The notes beneath the pieces are model-generated. The model did not search any database. It saw only the letters and a program-made list of their open reading frames with translations, and was not told the DNA's origin. 36,709 nucleotides of DNA from Nitrospirota bacterium (GTDB lineage: Bacteria; Nitrospirota; Thermodesulfovibrionia; Thermodesulfovibrionales; UBA6898): the NCBI GenBank assembly GCA_016215155.1, contig JACRLQ010000074.1, positions 1 to 36,709 on the forward strand, in the 5' to 3' direction. Position numbers and translations under genes: made by a program. Each line of letters starts with the position of its first letter. The first letter of the stretch is position 1. Positions 25,777 through 31,934 of the stretch are shown here, in pieces.

Positions 25777-26517
25777 CTACTTAAGCTTGATCAGCGACTC
25801 CGGATTGATGTCCGGGAAGAGCCCCGTGAGCTGGCGGACGTTGTTTGTGAGCATGAGCAGCCCGAAAATTATAAGCACCAGGCCGCTTAAGAGCATTATG
25901 TACTTCATGTATTTTCTGATCACGCCCGAATAGCTCAGGAAGGAGTTGAACATAAGAGACGACAGGAAGAAAGGAACGGCCAGCCCCAGGGAATAGACCC
26001 CCAGGAGCTTGAACCCGTATGACGCGGACCCCTGAGCACTCGCGTAAAGGAGGATAGTCCCTAAAATAGGGCCGATGCATGGCGTCCACGCCGCGGCAAA
26101 GGTCATGCCTACAAGAAATGACCCGGCATACCCCATGGGCCTTCCGCTCACATGGAATTTCACCTCCCTGGTAAGGAAATCGAGCTTCAGCACCCCCGAG
26201 ACGGAAAGGCCGAAGAAAATAACGAGGATACCTCCGCCCGTCCTTATCCAGTCCTGATACTGAAAAAGAAAATTCCCTATCGCGGACGATGAGGCCCCCA
26301 GGGCAAGGAATATTGTAGAAAACCCGGCTATGAAGGCGAGTGAATTGGTGATCGTAAGATAGCGGATCTTTTTTTTGTCGGCCCCGCTTTTTAAGTCTTC
26401 AAACGAAACACCCGTGATAAACGAAATGTAAGAAGGCATCAGCGGCAGGACGCAGGGAGACAGGAACGAAAGCAGTCCGGCGAAAAAGGCCAGGGGGAAA
26501 GAGATCTGGCCTATCAT
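25777..26517 (-). CDS. ccdA: Cytochrome c biogenesis / thiol-transfer protein CcdA
   Basis: A 246-residue inner-membrane protein with six hydrophobic helices. The two redox cysteines of the DsbD/CcdA family are visible: Cys22 in LSFLSPCVLPLMPSY and Cys147 in AAAWTPCIGPILG. It passes electrons from cytoplasmic thioredoxin to periplasmic thiol proteins, for haem ligation or disulfide reduction. The haem proteins and the Sec DsbA-like protein in this window are plausible recipients. It overlaps mogA by 4 bp. It has only the CcdA core, without the DsbD periplasmic domains. Confidence 0.92.
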   Translation of the reverse strand: MIGQISFPLAFFAGLLSFLSPCVLPLMPSYISFITGVSFEDLKSGADKKKIRYLTITNSLAFIAGFSTIFLALGASSSAIGNFLFQYQDWIRTGGGILVIFFGLSVSGVLKLDFLTREVKFHVSGRPMGYAGSFLVGMTFAAAWTPCIGPILGTILLYASAQGSASYGFKLLGVYSLGLAVPFFLSSLMFNSFLSYSGVIRKYMKYIMLLSGLVLIIFGLLMLTNNVRQLTGLFPDINPESLIKLK

Positions 26518-27011
26518 CGCGTTATTTCTCCATTACCGCAGTCCGCGGCGCATCCTTTGATCTTTTCGACCGCGTGGGGTATGACCTCGAGGATTACCTC
26601 CAGGCACTCCCTTATGGCCTTCGGACTACCCGGCATATTGATGATAAGCGCATTGCCCCTGACCCCCGCGACAGCCCTCGAAAGCATGGACCTCGGCGTC
26701 TTTTTCATGCCGCCCGCCCTCATGGCCTCGCCGATGCCGGGAATTTCCCTGTCGATGACCTCGAGTGTCGCATCGGGGGTAACATCGCGGGGGGAAAGGC
26801 CCGTGCCGCCGGTCGTAAGGACCAGGTCCGCCAGAAGCGAATACTCGATAAGTTTTTCCTTGATCAGTTCTTTTTCATCAGGAATGACTTCATAAAAATC
26901 CACTCGCGCGCCGATCCCCTTTACGATCTCTTTTATGGCAGGTCCGCTTAAGTCCTCGCGCTCTCCGCGCGAACCTTTATCGCTCATCGTTATCACGGCC
27001 GCCCTGATCAC
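26514..27011 (-). CDS. mogA: Molybdopterin adenylyltransferase (MogA/MoaB)
   Basis: A 165-residue MoCF-domain protein. TMSDKGSRGEREDLSGP opens it, TTGGTGLSPRDVTPDAT is the conserved nucleotide/molybdopterin loop, and NMPGSPKA is the second signature. It adenylates molybdopterin before Mo or W insertion. It overlaps both neighbours by 4 bp (MOSC protein upstream, ccdA downstream), a tight operon. In related bacteria MOSC and MogA occur as fused proteins, consistent with this order. It implies molybdenum or tungsten enzymes elsewhere in the genome. Confidence 0.93.
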   Translation of the reverse strand: MIRAAVITMSDKGSRGEREDLSGPAIKEIVKGIGARVDFYEVIPDEKELIKEKLIEYSLLADLVLTTGGTGLSPRDVTPDATLEVIDREIPGIGEAMRAGGMKKTPRSMLSRAVAGVRGNALIINMPGSPKAIRECLEVILEVIPHAVEKIKGCAADCGNGEITR

Positions 27012-27451
27012 TGCTTTACCGTGTCTATGACGTCACCCGGCCTTACTTTGCCGCCCTTGAGGACCTTTATGAAGATGCCCTCCGTCGGCATCACACAGTC
27101 CCCGGCCTGGTAGTAGATCGAACATCGGGTGTGGCATTCCTTGCCGATCTGGCTCACTTCCCCGACTACATCATCGCCTATCGATAATCCCGTGCCAAGC
27201 GGCAGAGAAAGCAGATCAATCCCCTCGGTCGTTATATTTTCAGCGAAATCGCCGGGCTTGACATCCAGCCCCTTTTCCCGCATCTTCCTTATACTCTCCA
27301 GGGCGAGCAGACTGACCTGCCGGTGCCACTCAGAAGACGCATGCGCGTCGCCTTCAATCCCATAGTCCGCATTGACCGATATTTCAGGCACGGGCTTTTT
27401 TCGCACGCCTTTTTTTTCGCTGGTATTTACGGAAATTACAGTGCCGGACAT
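27008..27451 (-). CDS. MOSC-domain protein
   Basis: A 147-residue stand-alone MOSC domain, related to the C-terminal domain of molybdenum-cofactor sulfurase. YGIEGDAHAS (30-39), then HRQVSLLALESI, and the Cys-rich KECHTRCSIYYQAGDCVMPTEGIF (104-127) hold Cys106, Cys110 and Cys119; Cys119 sits in the position typical of the reactive Cys. It probably handles cofactor sulfuration or trafficking with MogA, which starts within its last 4 bp. No ribosome site precedes ATG 27451. Only 36 bp separates it from the divergent synthetase-like gene, so their promoters must overlap. Confidence 0.88.
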   Translation of the reverse strand: MSGTVISVNTSEKKGVRKKPVPEISVNADYGIEGDAHASSEWHRQVSLLALESIRKMREKGLDVKPGDFAENITTEGIDLLSLPLGTGLSIGDDVVGEVSQIGKECHTRCSIYYQAGDCVMPTEGIFIKVLKGGKVRPGDVIDTVKQ

Positions 27452-27487: not shown

Positions 27488-28705
27488 ATGCTGAGGCTTT
27501 TCAACTCCATGGGAAGACGCGTCGAGATATTCCGTCCGGTCTCGAAAAAAGCGGTCACCGTCTTCACCTGCGGCCCTTCCGTGTATCAGAGGTCCCATAT
27601 CGGGAATTTCAGGACTTTTCTGTTTGAGGACGTGCTGGTGCGCTACCTCGAATACTCCGGCTACGCTGTAATACGCGGTATGAATTTCACGGACCTCGAG
27701 GACAAGGCGATACGCGAGGCCCTAACTAAAAAAGTGACGATGAGGGACCTCACGAGGGCGAATATGAGGTCCTTTCTCTCCGAGATGAAACTTCTTCGGA
27801 TGAAGGTCCCCGACTATCTGCCCGTGGCGTCGGAGCATGTCGCGGAAATGGCCCTTATCATCGGACAGCTGGTCAGAGAGGGCCATGCTTACTGGTATAA
27901 GGGGAATGTCTATTATGATCCGCTGACCTTCGAGGGGTTCGGAAAGCTCTATGGCCTCAATATGACGTCATGGCCTAAAAACAAAAGACGGTTTCATCGG
28001 GACACATACCCCGGCACGCAATGGAACATGGGCGATTTCATCCTCTGGCACGGGCACAGGCCCGGCGACCCTTTTTTCAGGGAGACGCCGATCGGCGCCG
28101 GAAGACCCTCATGGAATGTCCAGGACCCCGCGCTCGTCGGACTGTATTTCGATGAAACGCTTTCGATCTACTGCGGCGGCATAGATAACCTCGTCAGACA
28201 TCATGATTATTCGATCTCGATCCTGGAGGCCGTAAAACCCTATCCCATGGCGCGGTTCTGGCTGCACTGCCATCACGTTGTGGTGAAGGGGCGGAAGATG
28301 TCCAAAAGCAGGGGAAACATCCATTACACGGATACTCTTTCAGACCTCGGATATACTCCCGAGGAGATAAGGTTCTTCCTGATCTACGGCCATTACCGCA
28401 AACAGTTGAGCTATTCGGACAGGGCGATGCGGCAGACCGCGCAAAGGCTGAGAGCTTTGAAAATAATCCTCAATAAGATCAAAAAGAAGGCAGGCAGGGC
28501 CGACGGGGAAGCCGGCGCGGTTTCGAAAGCGCTGCTTGGTATTTTTGCGCGGCATATGGACGATGACCTCGACGTTAGGGCCGCCTTCGACGGACTGCAT
28601 AAGCGGCTTTCGGATATTGATATCGACCCGATGACAAAAGAAGAGGCCTCAGGGATAATTGACGCCCTTAAGAAAATAGACATGGTGCTTCAGGTGTTGT
28701 TTTAA
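27488..28705 (+). CDS. Cysteinyl-tRNA-synthetase-like protein with altered zinc site
   Basis: A 405-residue class I synthetase-fold protein related to CysRS (about 460) and to MshC (about 410). Opening FTCGPSVYQRSHIGNFR, MNFTDLEDKAI and KMSKS (270-274) show the family. Key differences: HIGH is HIGN (37-40). Of the four CysRS zinc ligands, Cys28 is kept; the second Cys is Asp213 (GRPSWNVQD in place of GRPGWHIEC), His238 is kept, and the Glu is Ser242 (HHDYS for HHENE). CysRS selects cysteine through that zinc, so this protein may activate another amino acid or act as a non-tRNA ligase. It lacks much of the anticodon domain. No ribosome site is visible; a TAAAAT lies 7 bases before the ATG. Confidence 0.85.
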   Translation: MLRLFNSMGRRVEIFRPVSKKAVTVFTCGPSVYQRSHIGNFRTFLFEDVLVRYLEYSGYAVIRGMNFTDLEDKAIREALTKKVTMRDLTRANMRSFLSEMKLLRMKVPDYLPVASEHVAEMALIIGQLVREGHAYWYKGNVYYDPLTFEGFGKLYGLNMTSWPKNKRRFHRDTYPGTQWNMGDFILWHGHRPGDPFFRETPIGAGRPSWNVQDPALVGLYFDETLSIYCGGIDNLVRHHDYSISILEAVKPYPMARFWLHCHHVVVKGRKMSKSRGNIHYTDTLSDLGYTPEEIRFFLIYGHYRKQLSYSDRAMRQTAQRLRALKIILNKIKKKAGRADGEAGAVSKALLGIFARHMDDDLDVRAAFDGLHKRLSDIDIDPMTKEEASGIIDALKKIDMVLQVLF

Positions 28706-28790: not shown

Positions 28791-28883
28791 CGCGGCAGTA
28801 TGTAAAACCGGACCCGGGTGAGACTGCCGGGCCCGCCTGTAACGCATATTGAGAAATCCCTTTTGCCGTGTTATTCTTCCTTT

Positions 28884-29861
28884 ATGCCGAGAAAACTTTA
28901 TCCTCTATATATATGTCTGACTCTATGCTCTGTTTTAGCCGTCTCGGGCTGTGAAAAAAAACAGGCCGGTCATTATAGCGGATACGCGGAAGGTGAATTC
29001 GTGCTGGTTGCGGCCCCCGCCGCCGGACGCCTTGAGAAAAGATGGGTGCAGCGCGGACAGGAGGTGAAGGCAGGAGCGCCGCTTTTTATACTTGAGCAGG
29101 AAAATGAAAAGGCGTCGCGGCGCGAGGCTGAGGCCCGTTTGCGCACGGCCGATGCAAGACTGTCTAACCTGACCCGCGGACGCCGGCCTTCGGAAATCGA
29201 TGCCCTTATTGCCGGCGCGGCCCAGGCGGATGCCGCGAAAAAACTCTCTCTGACCCAGCTTGAGCGTTTTGAAAAGCTCTTCGCCTCAGGCTACATATCG
29301 AGGGAACAGCTGGACGAGGCCAGGACCGCGAACGCCACGAATACCGCGCGCGTGGCGGAAGCGGAGGCCCGGCTTCGGTCTGCCAGGGAGTCTCTGGGAC
29401 GCGACAAGGAGATAGAGGGCGCCCGCACTGAGGTTGAGGCCGCATCGGCGGCCCTTGCCCAGAGCAACTGGCGCCTCTCGCAGCGGGCGGCGCATGCCCC
29501 CTCCGCCGCCCTGGTGTATGATACTTTTTATTCTGAGGGCGAGTGGGTCCCCGCGGGAAGTCCCGTGGTGAGTCTGCTGCCTCCGGGGAACCTCAAGTTT
29601 CGTTTTTATGTGCCTGAGACCGTGGCAGGCTCCATAAAACCCGGTCAGACTGTCCAGGCCTCCTGTGACGGGTGCGGAAAACCGATGACGGCCCTGGTAA
29701 GCTATATATCCCGGCAACCCGAATATACCCCTCCCGTCATCTATAGCCGGGACCAGAGGACACGGCTGGTATTTCTTGTCGAGGCCATCCCCGGTCCGGA
29801 ATACGCGGGCCGGGTCAATCCGGGTCAGCCGGTGGATATCTGGCTTAAGTGGACCCCTTGA
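28884..29861 (+). CDS. HlyD-family periplasmic adaptor lipoprotein
   Basis: I start at ATG 28884 (325 residues) because it is followed by a lipoprotein signal ending LAVSGC (Cys23); an upstream GTG (28818) would bury it. Next comes the adaptor core: a biotinyl-lipoyl half (VLVAAPAAGRLEKRWVQRGQEVKAGAPLFIL, about 37-70), a long Ala/Arg/Glu coiled coil (about 75-195), and a beta-barrel with EGEWVPAGSPVVSLLPPG. It links an inner-membrane transporter to an outer-membrane channel. It overlaps the ABC ATPase start by one base (TGATG). The organisation resembles E. coli ybhG-ybhF-ybhS/R. No ribosome site is evident at the ATG. Confidence 0.88.
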   Translation: MPRKLYPLYICLTLCSVLAVSGCEKKQAGHYSGYAEGEFVLVAAPAAGRLEKRWVQRGQEVKAGAPLFILEQENEKASRREAEARLRTADARLSNLTRGRRPSEIDALIAGAAQADAAKKLSLTQLERFEKLFASGYISREQLDEARTANATNTARVAEAEARLRSARESLGRDKEIEGARTEVEAASAALAQSNWRLSQRAAHAPSAALVYDTFYSEGEWVPAGSPVVSLLPPGNLKFRFYVPETVAGSIKPGQTVQASCDGCGKPMTALVSYISRQPEYTPPVIYSRDQRTRLVFLVEAIPGPEYAGRVNPGQPVDIWLKWTP

Positions 29862-30787
29862 TGGACCCCGGACCAGCCGTCGACGTCAGGGGCCTGAATA
29901 AATATTTCGGCAAAAAGCATGTGGTGCGGGACCTGTCCCTTCAGGTCAGGCGGGGCGAGATATTCGGTTTCCTCGGACCAAACGGCAGCGGGAAGACGAC
30001 GTCCATCAGGCTTTTATGCGGTCTTCTGACCCCTGATTCCGGCAGCGGGACCTGTCTGGGCTTTGATATCGCGCGTGAAACAGCGGCCATCAAACGTGAA
30101 GTAGGCTATATGACCCAGCGGTTTTCGCTCTGGGAGGACCTGACGATCCGGGAGAACCTTGAGTTCGTTTCGAGGATGTACGGCATGAAAAACCGTAGTC
30201 GGGCCGTCTCGGAGGCCCTTGAGAACCTCGGGCTTTCCTCCCGCCAGGGGCAGCTTGCGGGCACGCTCTCCGGCGGATGGAAACAGAGGCTTTCTCTTGC
30301 GTCATGTATGCTCCACAATCCTCATCTGCTCCTTCTGGACGAACCTACCGCGGGCGTCGATCCGAGGGCGCGGAGAGATTTCTGGGACCATATCAACGAG
30401 CTTGCCGGAAGCGGCATCACGGTCCTGGTTTCCACTCACTATATGGACGAGGCCGAGCGTTGCCACCGTCTGGCGTATATCGCGTACGGCCGTCTGCTCG
30501 TCTCGGGCACCTCGGAAGAGGTGATAGGCTCGCAGGCCCTCGCCGGTTATGAGGTGACGGGTCCTGATCTGCCGCGCTATGCGGCGCTGCTCCGGGGGCT
30601 GCCGTTTCCGGTGCAGGTGACCGCCTTCGGGGCCACTCTGCACGTGGTGGGCAGCGACTCCACGGCTCTGAATGATCTCGCTCAGCGGATGAAAAAGGAG
30701 GATTCCCATGATTGGAAGCCCATCAGTCCGGGTCTTGAGGACGTCTTCATCAGTCTGATGGAAAAGGCGGAGGAGGACATTACGTGA
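29861..30787 (+). CDS. ABC transporter ATPase (YbhF/ABC-2 type)
   Basis: A 308-residue ATPase starting at ATG 29861 inside TGATG; GTG 29849 is an alternative. Walker A GPNGSGKTT, Q-loop YMTQRFSLWEDLT, signature LSGGW, Walker B LLLLDEPTAGVD and the switch His in STHYMDEAERC are all present. The signature is LSGGWKQR rather than LSGGQ, as in many YbhF/CcmA-like drug or lipid exporters. Only one nucleotide-binding domain is present, where YbhF has two. The C-terminal 80 residues form the usual extension. It drives the permease 10 bp downstream with the HlyD adaptor; the substrate is unknown. Confidence 0.92.
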   Translation: MDPGPAVDVRGLNKYFGKKHVVRDLSLQVRRGEIFGFLGPNGSGKTTSIRLLCGLLTPDSGSGTCLGFDIARETAAIKREVGYMTQRFSLWEDLTIRENLEFVSRMYGMKNRSRAVSEALENLGLSSRQGQLAGTLSGGWKQRLSLASCMLHNPHLLLLDEPTAGVDPRARRDFWDHINELAGSGITVLVSTHYMDEAERCHRLAYIAYGRLLVSGTSEEVIGSQALAGYEVTGPDLPRYAALLRGLPFPVQVTAFGATLHVVGSDSTALNDLAQRMKKEDSHDWKPISPGLEDVFISLMEKAEEDIT

Positions 30788-30797
30788 GGCGGGCCCG

Positions 30798-31934
30798 ATG
30801 ATATCAGGGTTTTCATGGCTCAGGTGGTCGGGCATAATTTTTAAGGAGTTTATCCAGTTAAAGAGGGACCGTCTGACGTTCGCAATGGTCGTCGGGATCC
30901 CTATAATGCAGCTTACCCTCTTTGGGTATGCCATAAACTCGGACCCCAAAAATCTTCCCTCCGCCGCCCTCATCGCCGATCACGGCCCCTTTGGAAGGGC
31001 GGTCCTTCAGGGGCTTGACAATAGCGACTATTTCCGGATCGTCAGGGAGATATCGGATGCGGCCGACGCGGACAGGCTGCTAGCGGAAGGAGATGTGCAG
31101 TTCGTCGTTACCATTCCCGGGGATTTCGACAGAAAACTGGCACGGGGGGAGAGACCGGCGCTTTTTATAGAAGCCGACGCGACGGACCCCAGCGCCACGG
31201 GCAACGCTCTCGCGGCGGTAGCCGGTATTGTCCGCGCGTCTTTGGCGCGCGATCTCCAGGGGACACTGGGAAGGCTGGCGCCACTTTCCGATCCCGTGGA
31301 TATACGCGTGCACCGCAGGTATAACCCGGAAGGCGTCACGTCCTTCAACATCGTGCCGGGCCTGATAGGGACGATCCTCACGATGACCATGATCCTGCTG
31401 ACGGGTCTTGCGATGACGCGGGAGAGGGAGCGCGGGACGTTCGAGAACCTGCTTGCGACGCCGGCGCTCCCGATAGAGGTCATGACCGGCAAGATAGTCC
31501 CTTACATACTGATCGGCCTTATTCAGGTCTCCCTGCTGATCGCCGCCGCTTATTTCATCTTCAACGTCCCTATGGTGGGCAGCCTGGCGCTGCTTTATCT
31601 GTCCGTGCTGATCTTCATCGCGGCAAACCTTACTCTCGGTATCACCTTTTCGTCCATAGCCCGCAACCAACTCCAGGCGATGCAGATGACTTTTTTCTTT
31701 TTCCTGCCGTCGATCCTTCTTTCGGGCTTCATGTTCCCGTTCCGGGGGATGCCCCAGTGGGCGCAGTGGGTAGGGTCGATTTTTCCGCTGACGCATTTCC
31801 TCCGGATAGTGCGCGGGATCATGCTGAAGGGCAACACCTTCGCCGAACTATGGCCGAACCTGTGGCCGATCCTCGCCTTTATTTCGGTGGTCATAGCCCT
31901 GGGCCTCCTTGTTTACAGGAAGACCCTCGATTGA
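30798..31934 (+). CDS. ABC-2 type permease (YbhR/YbhS-like)
   Basis: A 378-residue membrane protein: a first helix (about 25-47) after FKEFIQLKRDRLTFAM, a large periplasmic domain (about 50-175), then five helices. ERERGTFENLLATPA before a helix, and FPFRGMPQWAQWVGSIFPLTHFLRIVRGIMLKG near the end, are hallmarks of ABC-2 permeases of the YbhR/YhhJ group. It dimerises and works with the ATPase just upstream and the HlyD adaptor. E. coli has two permeases (YbhS and YbhR); here there is one, so it may act as a homodimer. No outer-membrane partner (TolC) is in the window. Confidence 0.92.
   Translation: MISGFSWLRWSGIIFKEFIQLKRDRLTFAMVVGIPIMQLTLFGYAINSDPKNLPSAALIADHGPFGRAVLQGLDNSDYFRIVREISDAADADRLLAEGDVQFVVTIPGDFDRKLARGERPALFIEADATDPSATGNALAAVAGIVRASLARDLQGTLGRLAPLSDPVDIRVHRRYNPEGVTSFNIVPGLIGTILTMTMILLTGLAMTRERERGTFENLLATPALPIEVMTGKIVPYILIGLIQVSLLIAAAYFIFNVPMVGSLALLYLSVLIFIAANLTLGITFSSIARNQLQAMQMTFFFFLPSILLSGFMFPFRGMPQWAQWVGSIFPLTHFLRIVRGIMLKGNTFAELWPNLWPILAFISVVIALGLLVYRKTLD

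Follow-up and report, generated by a model that had tools for sequence, protein, structure and literature searches.

CysRS chooses cysteine by means of zinc. The CysRS paralog MshC is an example of how an important small thiol can be made by a derivative of this enzyme.

In MshC, zinc is bound by C43, C231, and H256 together with the substrate thiol, and the amino group is held by T46, T83, and G44 (PMC9736012). Another paralog, CysRS*, lacks the anticodon-binding domain (ABD) (PMC7609411, PMC9437257) and charges the selC* tRNA-Cys (PMC7609411). Additionally, CysRS paralogs with retained zinc residues are known in proteobacterial Zur regulons (PMC2770081). Here, these systems are compared with a CysRS-like protein of 405 aa encoded in the genome of a Nitrospirota bacterium (assembly GCA_016215155.1). 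The analyzed DNA, hereinafter the window, comprises positions 1–36,709 (forward strand) of contig JACRLQ010000074.1, and the protein together with its close relatives is referred to as the clade. No description of this clade was found in the open-access literature.

CysRS-Like Protein and Predicted Structure

The protein scored 229.5 bits against the CysRS catalytic domain (Pfam: PF01406), 285.8 bits against TIGR00435 (cysS; cut-off 340), and 168.9 bits against the MshC model TIGR03447, far under the curated cut-off of 485.1. It is a member of the CysRS family, yet falls under the curated cut-offs of the cysS and MshC models alike. The class I CysRS catalytic fold with the HIG[HN] and KMSKS motifs is present. 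For the AlphaFold model (mean pLDDT 87), CysRS ranks first among the structural matches with MshC close behind, and VIA-align gave Z-scores of 44.8 to 8qhp and 40.3 to MshC (3c8z). The C-terminal anticodon-binding domain is absent, since the model superposes on E. coli CysRS (1u0b) over residues 1–395 of 461 alone. Thus, the preliminary description, made from the sequence alone, was right in reporting a short C-terminal region as well as a kept KMSKS motif and catalytic fold, the latter two being confirmed by alignment to E. coli CysRS, by PF01406, and by the predicted structure. Coordinates of all features are given in Table 1.

Table 1. Features of the ligase gene and its neighborhood (positions in the window).
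Feature	Position	Strand	Basis
CysRS-like ligase, 405 aa, ATG start, without anticodon-binding domain	27488..28705	+	ORF, domain models, predicted structure
Cys28, kept metal-ligand position (E. coli C28, MshC C43)	27569..27571	+	Alignment; MshC ligands from PMC9736012
HIGN variant of the HIGH motif, also frequent among ordinary CysRS	27596..27607	+	28/38 CysRS with N
Asp213 in place of zinc ligand Cys209 (MshC C231), clade-invariant	28124..28126	+	D in 25/25
His238, kept metal-ligand position (E. coli H234, MshC H256)	28199..28201	+	Alignment
Ser242 at the position of zinc ligand Glu238; clade members have S/T/N here, three MshC have S/S/G	28211..28213	+	Alignment
KMSKS motif, kept	28295..28309	+	Alignment
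Divergent gene with a MOSC domain, separated from the ligase gene by 36 bp; arrangement kept in two congeners	27008..27451	-	Pfam, locus comparison
MogA/MoaB-type molybdopterin-binding protein	26514..27011	-	Pfam
CcdA/DsbD transmembrane protein	25777..26517	-	Pfam
Export genes for HlyD, an ABC ATPase, and an ABC-2 permease, 112 bp downstream of the ligase gene	28818..31934	+	Pfam, locus comparison

Predicted Metal Site and Selection

Relative to E. coli CysRS, the protein retains C28, T68, W205, D229, H234, and KMSKS, and the same residues together with the fold and HIG[HN] are common to CysRS and the clade. The four-ligand zinc set (Cys, Cys, His, and Glu), in contrast, is not present, because C209 is replaced by D213 and E238 by S242. 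Both replacements, already pointed out in the preliminary description, are clade-wide: Asp occupies the C209 position in all 25 aligned members, and Ser, Thr, or Asn occupies the E238 position in 24 of them. Further changes separating the clade from CysRS are H206 to N, E208 to Q, H224 to Y/F/W, and P233 to R. Residues Q212, D213, C229, R237, D240, and Y241 are invariant in the 25 members. C229 was left out of the ligand set because 9 of 38 ordinary CysRS share it.

Two other statements on these residues had to be modified. HIGN is indeed the form of the motif found here, but it was rejected as a mark of divergence and is uninformative, since 28 of the 38 sampled CysRS with a complete zinc site carry it. 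The zinc site had been called dismantled; the replacements are real, but "rebuilt" fits better, because C28, D213, and H238, at the three metal positions of the MshC type, remain potential ligands. These three residues are predicted to bind a metal. Loss of canonical metal-site residues could alternatively be a sign of a decaying pseudo-enzyme. This reading is extremely improbable, as the replacements are fixed throughout the clade and dN/dS is ~0.12–0.17 in non-saturated clade pairs, which indicates that the protein is under purifying selection.

Distribution of the Clade and of Canonical CysRS

A profile built from 15 clade members was searched against 396 genomes of the phylum. Full-length clade members scored ~639–722 bits and ordinary CysRS at most 287 bits. 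Clade members were found in 26 of these genomes, all belonging, by group codes, to the order of the window, in which their distribution is patchy. The few outliers elsewhere belong to records whose titles name Deltaproteobacteria, Desulfobacterales, and Anaerolineaceae. No relative of the clade was found in viral contigs. All phage and plasmid matches had less than 60% identity, and those among them that were listed resemble ordinary CysRS or MshC.

The window's genome additionally encodes a canonical CysRS, which forms the C-terminal part of a 707-aa fusion protein with a serine acetyltransferase-like domain in front (CysE by sequence reading; L002, 829–2952). In a search with a permissive threshold, a canonical CysRS was found in 20 of the 22 carriers checked. 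The check for a normal cysS thus upheld the view of the 405-aa protein as a CysRS paralog, and the coexistence of both proteins in one genome further distinguishes the clade from CysRS. Long CysE-CysRS-like frames recur across the family. In one carrier, a third CysRS-like frame was observed (G411:C1:1709146-1710360, L320; 773 aa open frame, 30% identity).

A paralog of this kind could serve as a backup CysRS under zinc limitation or other stress, still charging tRNA-Cys, much as the paralogs in proteobacterial Zur regulons might suggest (PMC2770081). Two carriers agree with such a role, G026 and G409 (2.6 Mb), both draft genomes in which the permissive search found no canonical CysRS. The clade nevertheless lacks the anticodon domain, the Zur-linked paralogs retain their zinc residues (PMC2770081), zinc-uptake genes were not noticed among the neighbors read, and most carriers have the canonical enzyme. 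A backup role is therefore improbable.

Genomic Context

The position of the gene, divergent from MOSC, MogA, and CcdA genes, was as first described and is supported by Pfam. The neighbor conserved within the window's genus is the MOSC gene, which lies 36 bp away in divergent orientation. The HlyD, ABC ATPase, and ABC-2 permease genes are not claimed as a part of the system because they are not conserved beside the ligase gene in the congeners.

In total, 32 clade loci had a readable upstream neighbor, and in 18 of them the immediate co-directional upstream gene encodes a MATE transporter (PF01554). The spacing is usually within ~100 bp, and the outer neighbors often differ. No match to the clade-linked MATE was found in the window's genome (G000), and in the congeners G001 and G004 the MATE gene is present and a clade member was not found. 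MATE was accordingly rejected as an obligate partner for this genus. Single groups elsewhere have an ammonium-transporter-like/P-II context or a phosphoglucomutase-like neighbor, as judged from sequence. In one genus (L117, L118, L123, and L124), an MFS-like transporter follows the ligase gene, and ammonium-transporter-like genes precede it where readable. No acceptor or pathway genes conserved beside the ligase gene were found.

Relation to MshC and to Short CysRS-Like Proteins of Methanoperedens

A quick tree recovered the clade as monophyletic (100) and joined it most closely to a short Methanoperedens CysRS-like protein (92, not starred), with MshC placed on the other side. Forcing the clade and MshC together cost 39.65 log units with a p-AU of 0.06, so this grouping is disfavored, short of rejection.

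Proteins of the clade resemble MshC in length (~405–415 aa), in having neither an anticodon domain nor a Glu as the fourth ligand, a position at which MshC has Ser or Gly, and in the amino-group contacts. The three protein ligands of MshC (Cys, Cys, and His) are not all found in the 405-aa protein, in which the second Cys, equivalent to C231, is Asp. Because MshC also lacks the Glu ligand and the anticodon domain, it is the Cys-to-Asp change at C209 alone that separates the metal site and architecture of the clade from those of MshC; the low score with the MshC model and the position in the best tree set the two further apart.

These data bear on whether the clade is a true MshC homolog making a mycothiol-like thiol. 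Its size is the same, its HH[DE]YS motif resembles the HHEYS of MshC, and the AU test of the joint grouping stops at 0.06. Nonetheless, the TIGR03447 score is far under the cut-off, the best tree places MshC elsewhere, and MshC keeps the second Cys ligand, which makes such homology very unlikely. The proposal that the protein diverged in the way MshC has thus holds for anatomy, truncation and loss of E238 being found in both, but not for ancestry as drawn in the best tree. Since that tree joins the clade to the Methanoperedens protein, the likeness to MshC is interpreted as a parallel rather than membership, although the joint grouping was not firmly rejected.

The Methanoperedens protein is encoded at seven loci (L020, L028, L037, L041, L042, L044, and L058) and has no anticodon domain. 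Like the clade, it is short (402–421 aa as called here), has T31 replaced by Ser, has lost E238, and is encoded co-directionally behind export genes in several genomes. Unlike the clade, it is archaeal, keeps C209, and has Val at the E238 position, and its upstream exporter is ABC-2 rather than MATE; in five loci the gene directly follows an ABC-2 permease gene. SepRS, which serves Cys-tRNA formation, was found in all seven Methanoperedens genomes.

Possible tRNA and Macromolecular Acceptors

A tRNA substrate is not ruled out by the absence of the anticodon domain alone, because the published ABD-less CysRS* (PMC7609411, PMC9437257) charges a special tRNA (PMC7609411). As in the clade, CysRS* of Desulfobacterales is a CysRS paralog without this domain and with a normal CysRS alongside. 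The clade could thus be a CysRS variant that has lost the ABD and is reserved for an unusual tRNA, and the window's genome does contain an extra tRNA-Cys(GCA) with a tRNA-Sec-like architecture (G000:C79:23364-23453; L130, L168). As judged from sequence, genes beside this tRNA are related to sulfur metabolism and resemble those for cysteine synthase, TusA, and DsrE.

A covariance model was built from eight selC*-like tRNAs and searched against the 396 genomes. Matches of 64 bits or more were accepted, because tRNA-Sec matches score ~55–61 bits. Counted as covariance-model matches, a part of which was checked by ARAGORN, selC*-like tRNAs were found in ~63 genomes, of which 12 are among the 26 clade carriers and ~51 have no clade member. 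The 14 carriers without such a match include G023, a 100% complete genome in 20 contigs. Additionally, no tRNA genes were found at the clade loci examined. A dedicated selC*-like tRNA partner was rejected on these counts. Judging from the published description of CysRS*, the clade also differs from it in having no selB or selC genes beside it. Since C209D and E238S/T/N moreover change the cysteine pocket, dedication to an unusual tRNA is considered unlikely.

The acceptor could also be a macromolecule other than the tRNA 3′ end, e.g., a base within a tRNA, a carrier protein, or a translation factor. GluQ-RS and EpmA aminoacylate acceptors of this kind, and loss of the anticodon domain is typical of such paralogs. 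Conserved changes specific to the clade, e.g., the RRFHxDTYPG..WN region, could accommodate a new acceptor. Beside the ligase gene, neither a gene for a carrier protein nor one for a modification was seen, and no positive evidence for a macromolecular acceptor was found; this explanation is improbable.

Proposed Function

The best explanation, with just under an even chance of being correct, is that CysRS gave rise to a tRNA-independent amino-acid ligase that works like MshC but has a side-chain pocket of its own. The absence of the anticodon part, the rebuilt metal pocket, and the normal copy in the genome indicate that the amino acid is probably joined to some molecule other than tRNA. In the proposed mechanism, a small amino acid and ATP would form an aminoacyl-adenylate via HIGN and KMSKS and the kept amino-group contacts S31, T68, and G29. 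The aminoacyl group would then pass to a small amine or similar acceptor, not to canonical tRNA-Cys. The rebuilt three-ligand metal site (C28, D213, and H238) would form the side-chain pocket. Such a pocket could still accept a thiol, either cysteine or a closely similar compound; with the harder Asp ligand, it could instead bind an O- or N-bearing side chain. The product or a related compound may, in many lineages, leave the cell via the co-directional MATE transporter.

As a whole, the clade may tentatively be regarded as a family, as yet without a name, of amino-acid ligases that arose from CysRS, carry a Cys/Asp/His metal site, and make an aminoacylated metabolite that is possibly exported, a related short form being present in Methanoperedens archaea. 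With one Cys ligand consistently changed to Asp and the Glu consistently lost, this conserved clade offers a natural test of how the pocket determines substrate choice. The existence of a second such group in uncultured bacteria, and of a related short form in Methanoperedens, points to a hitherto undescribed product.
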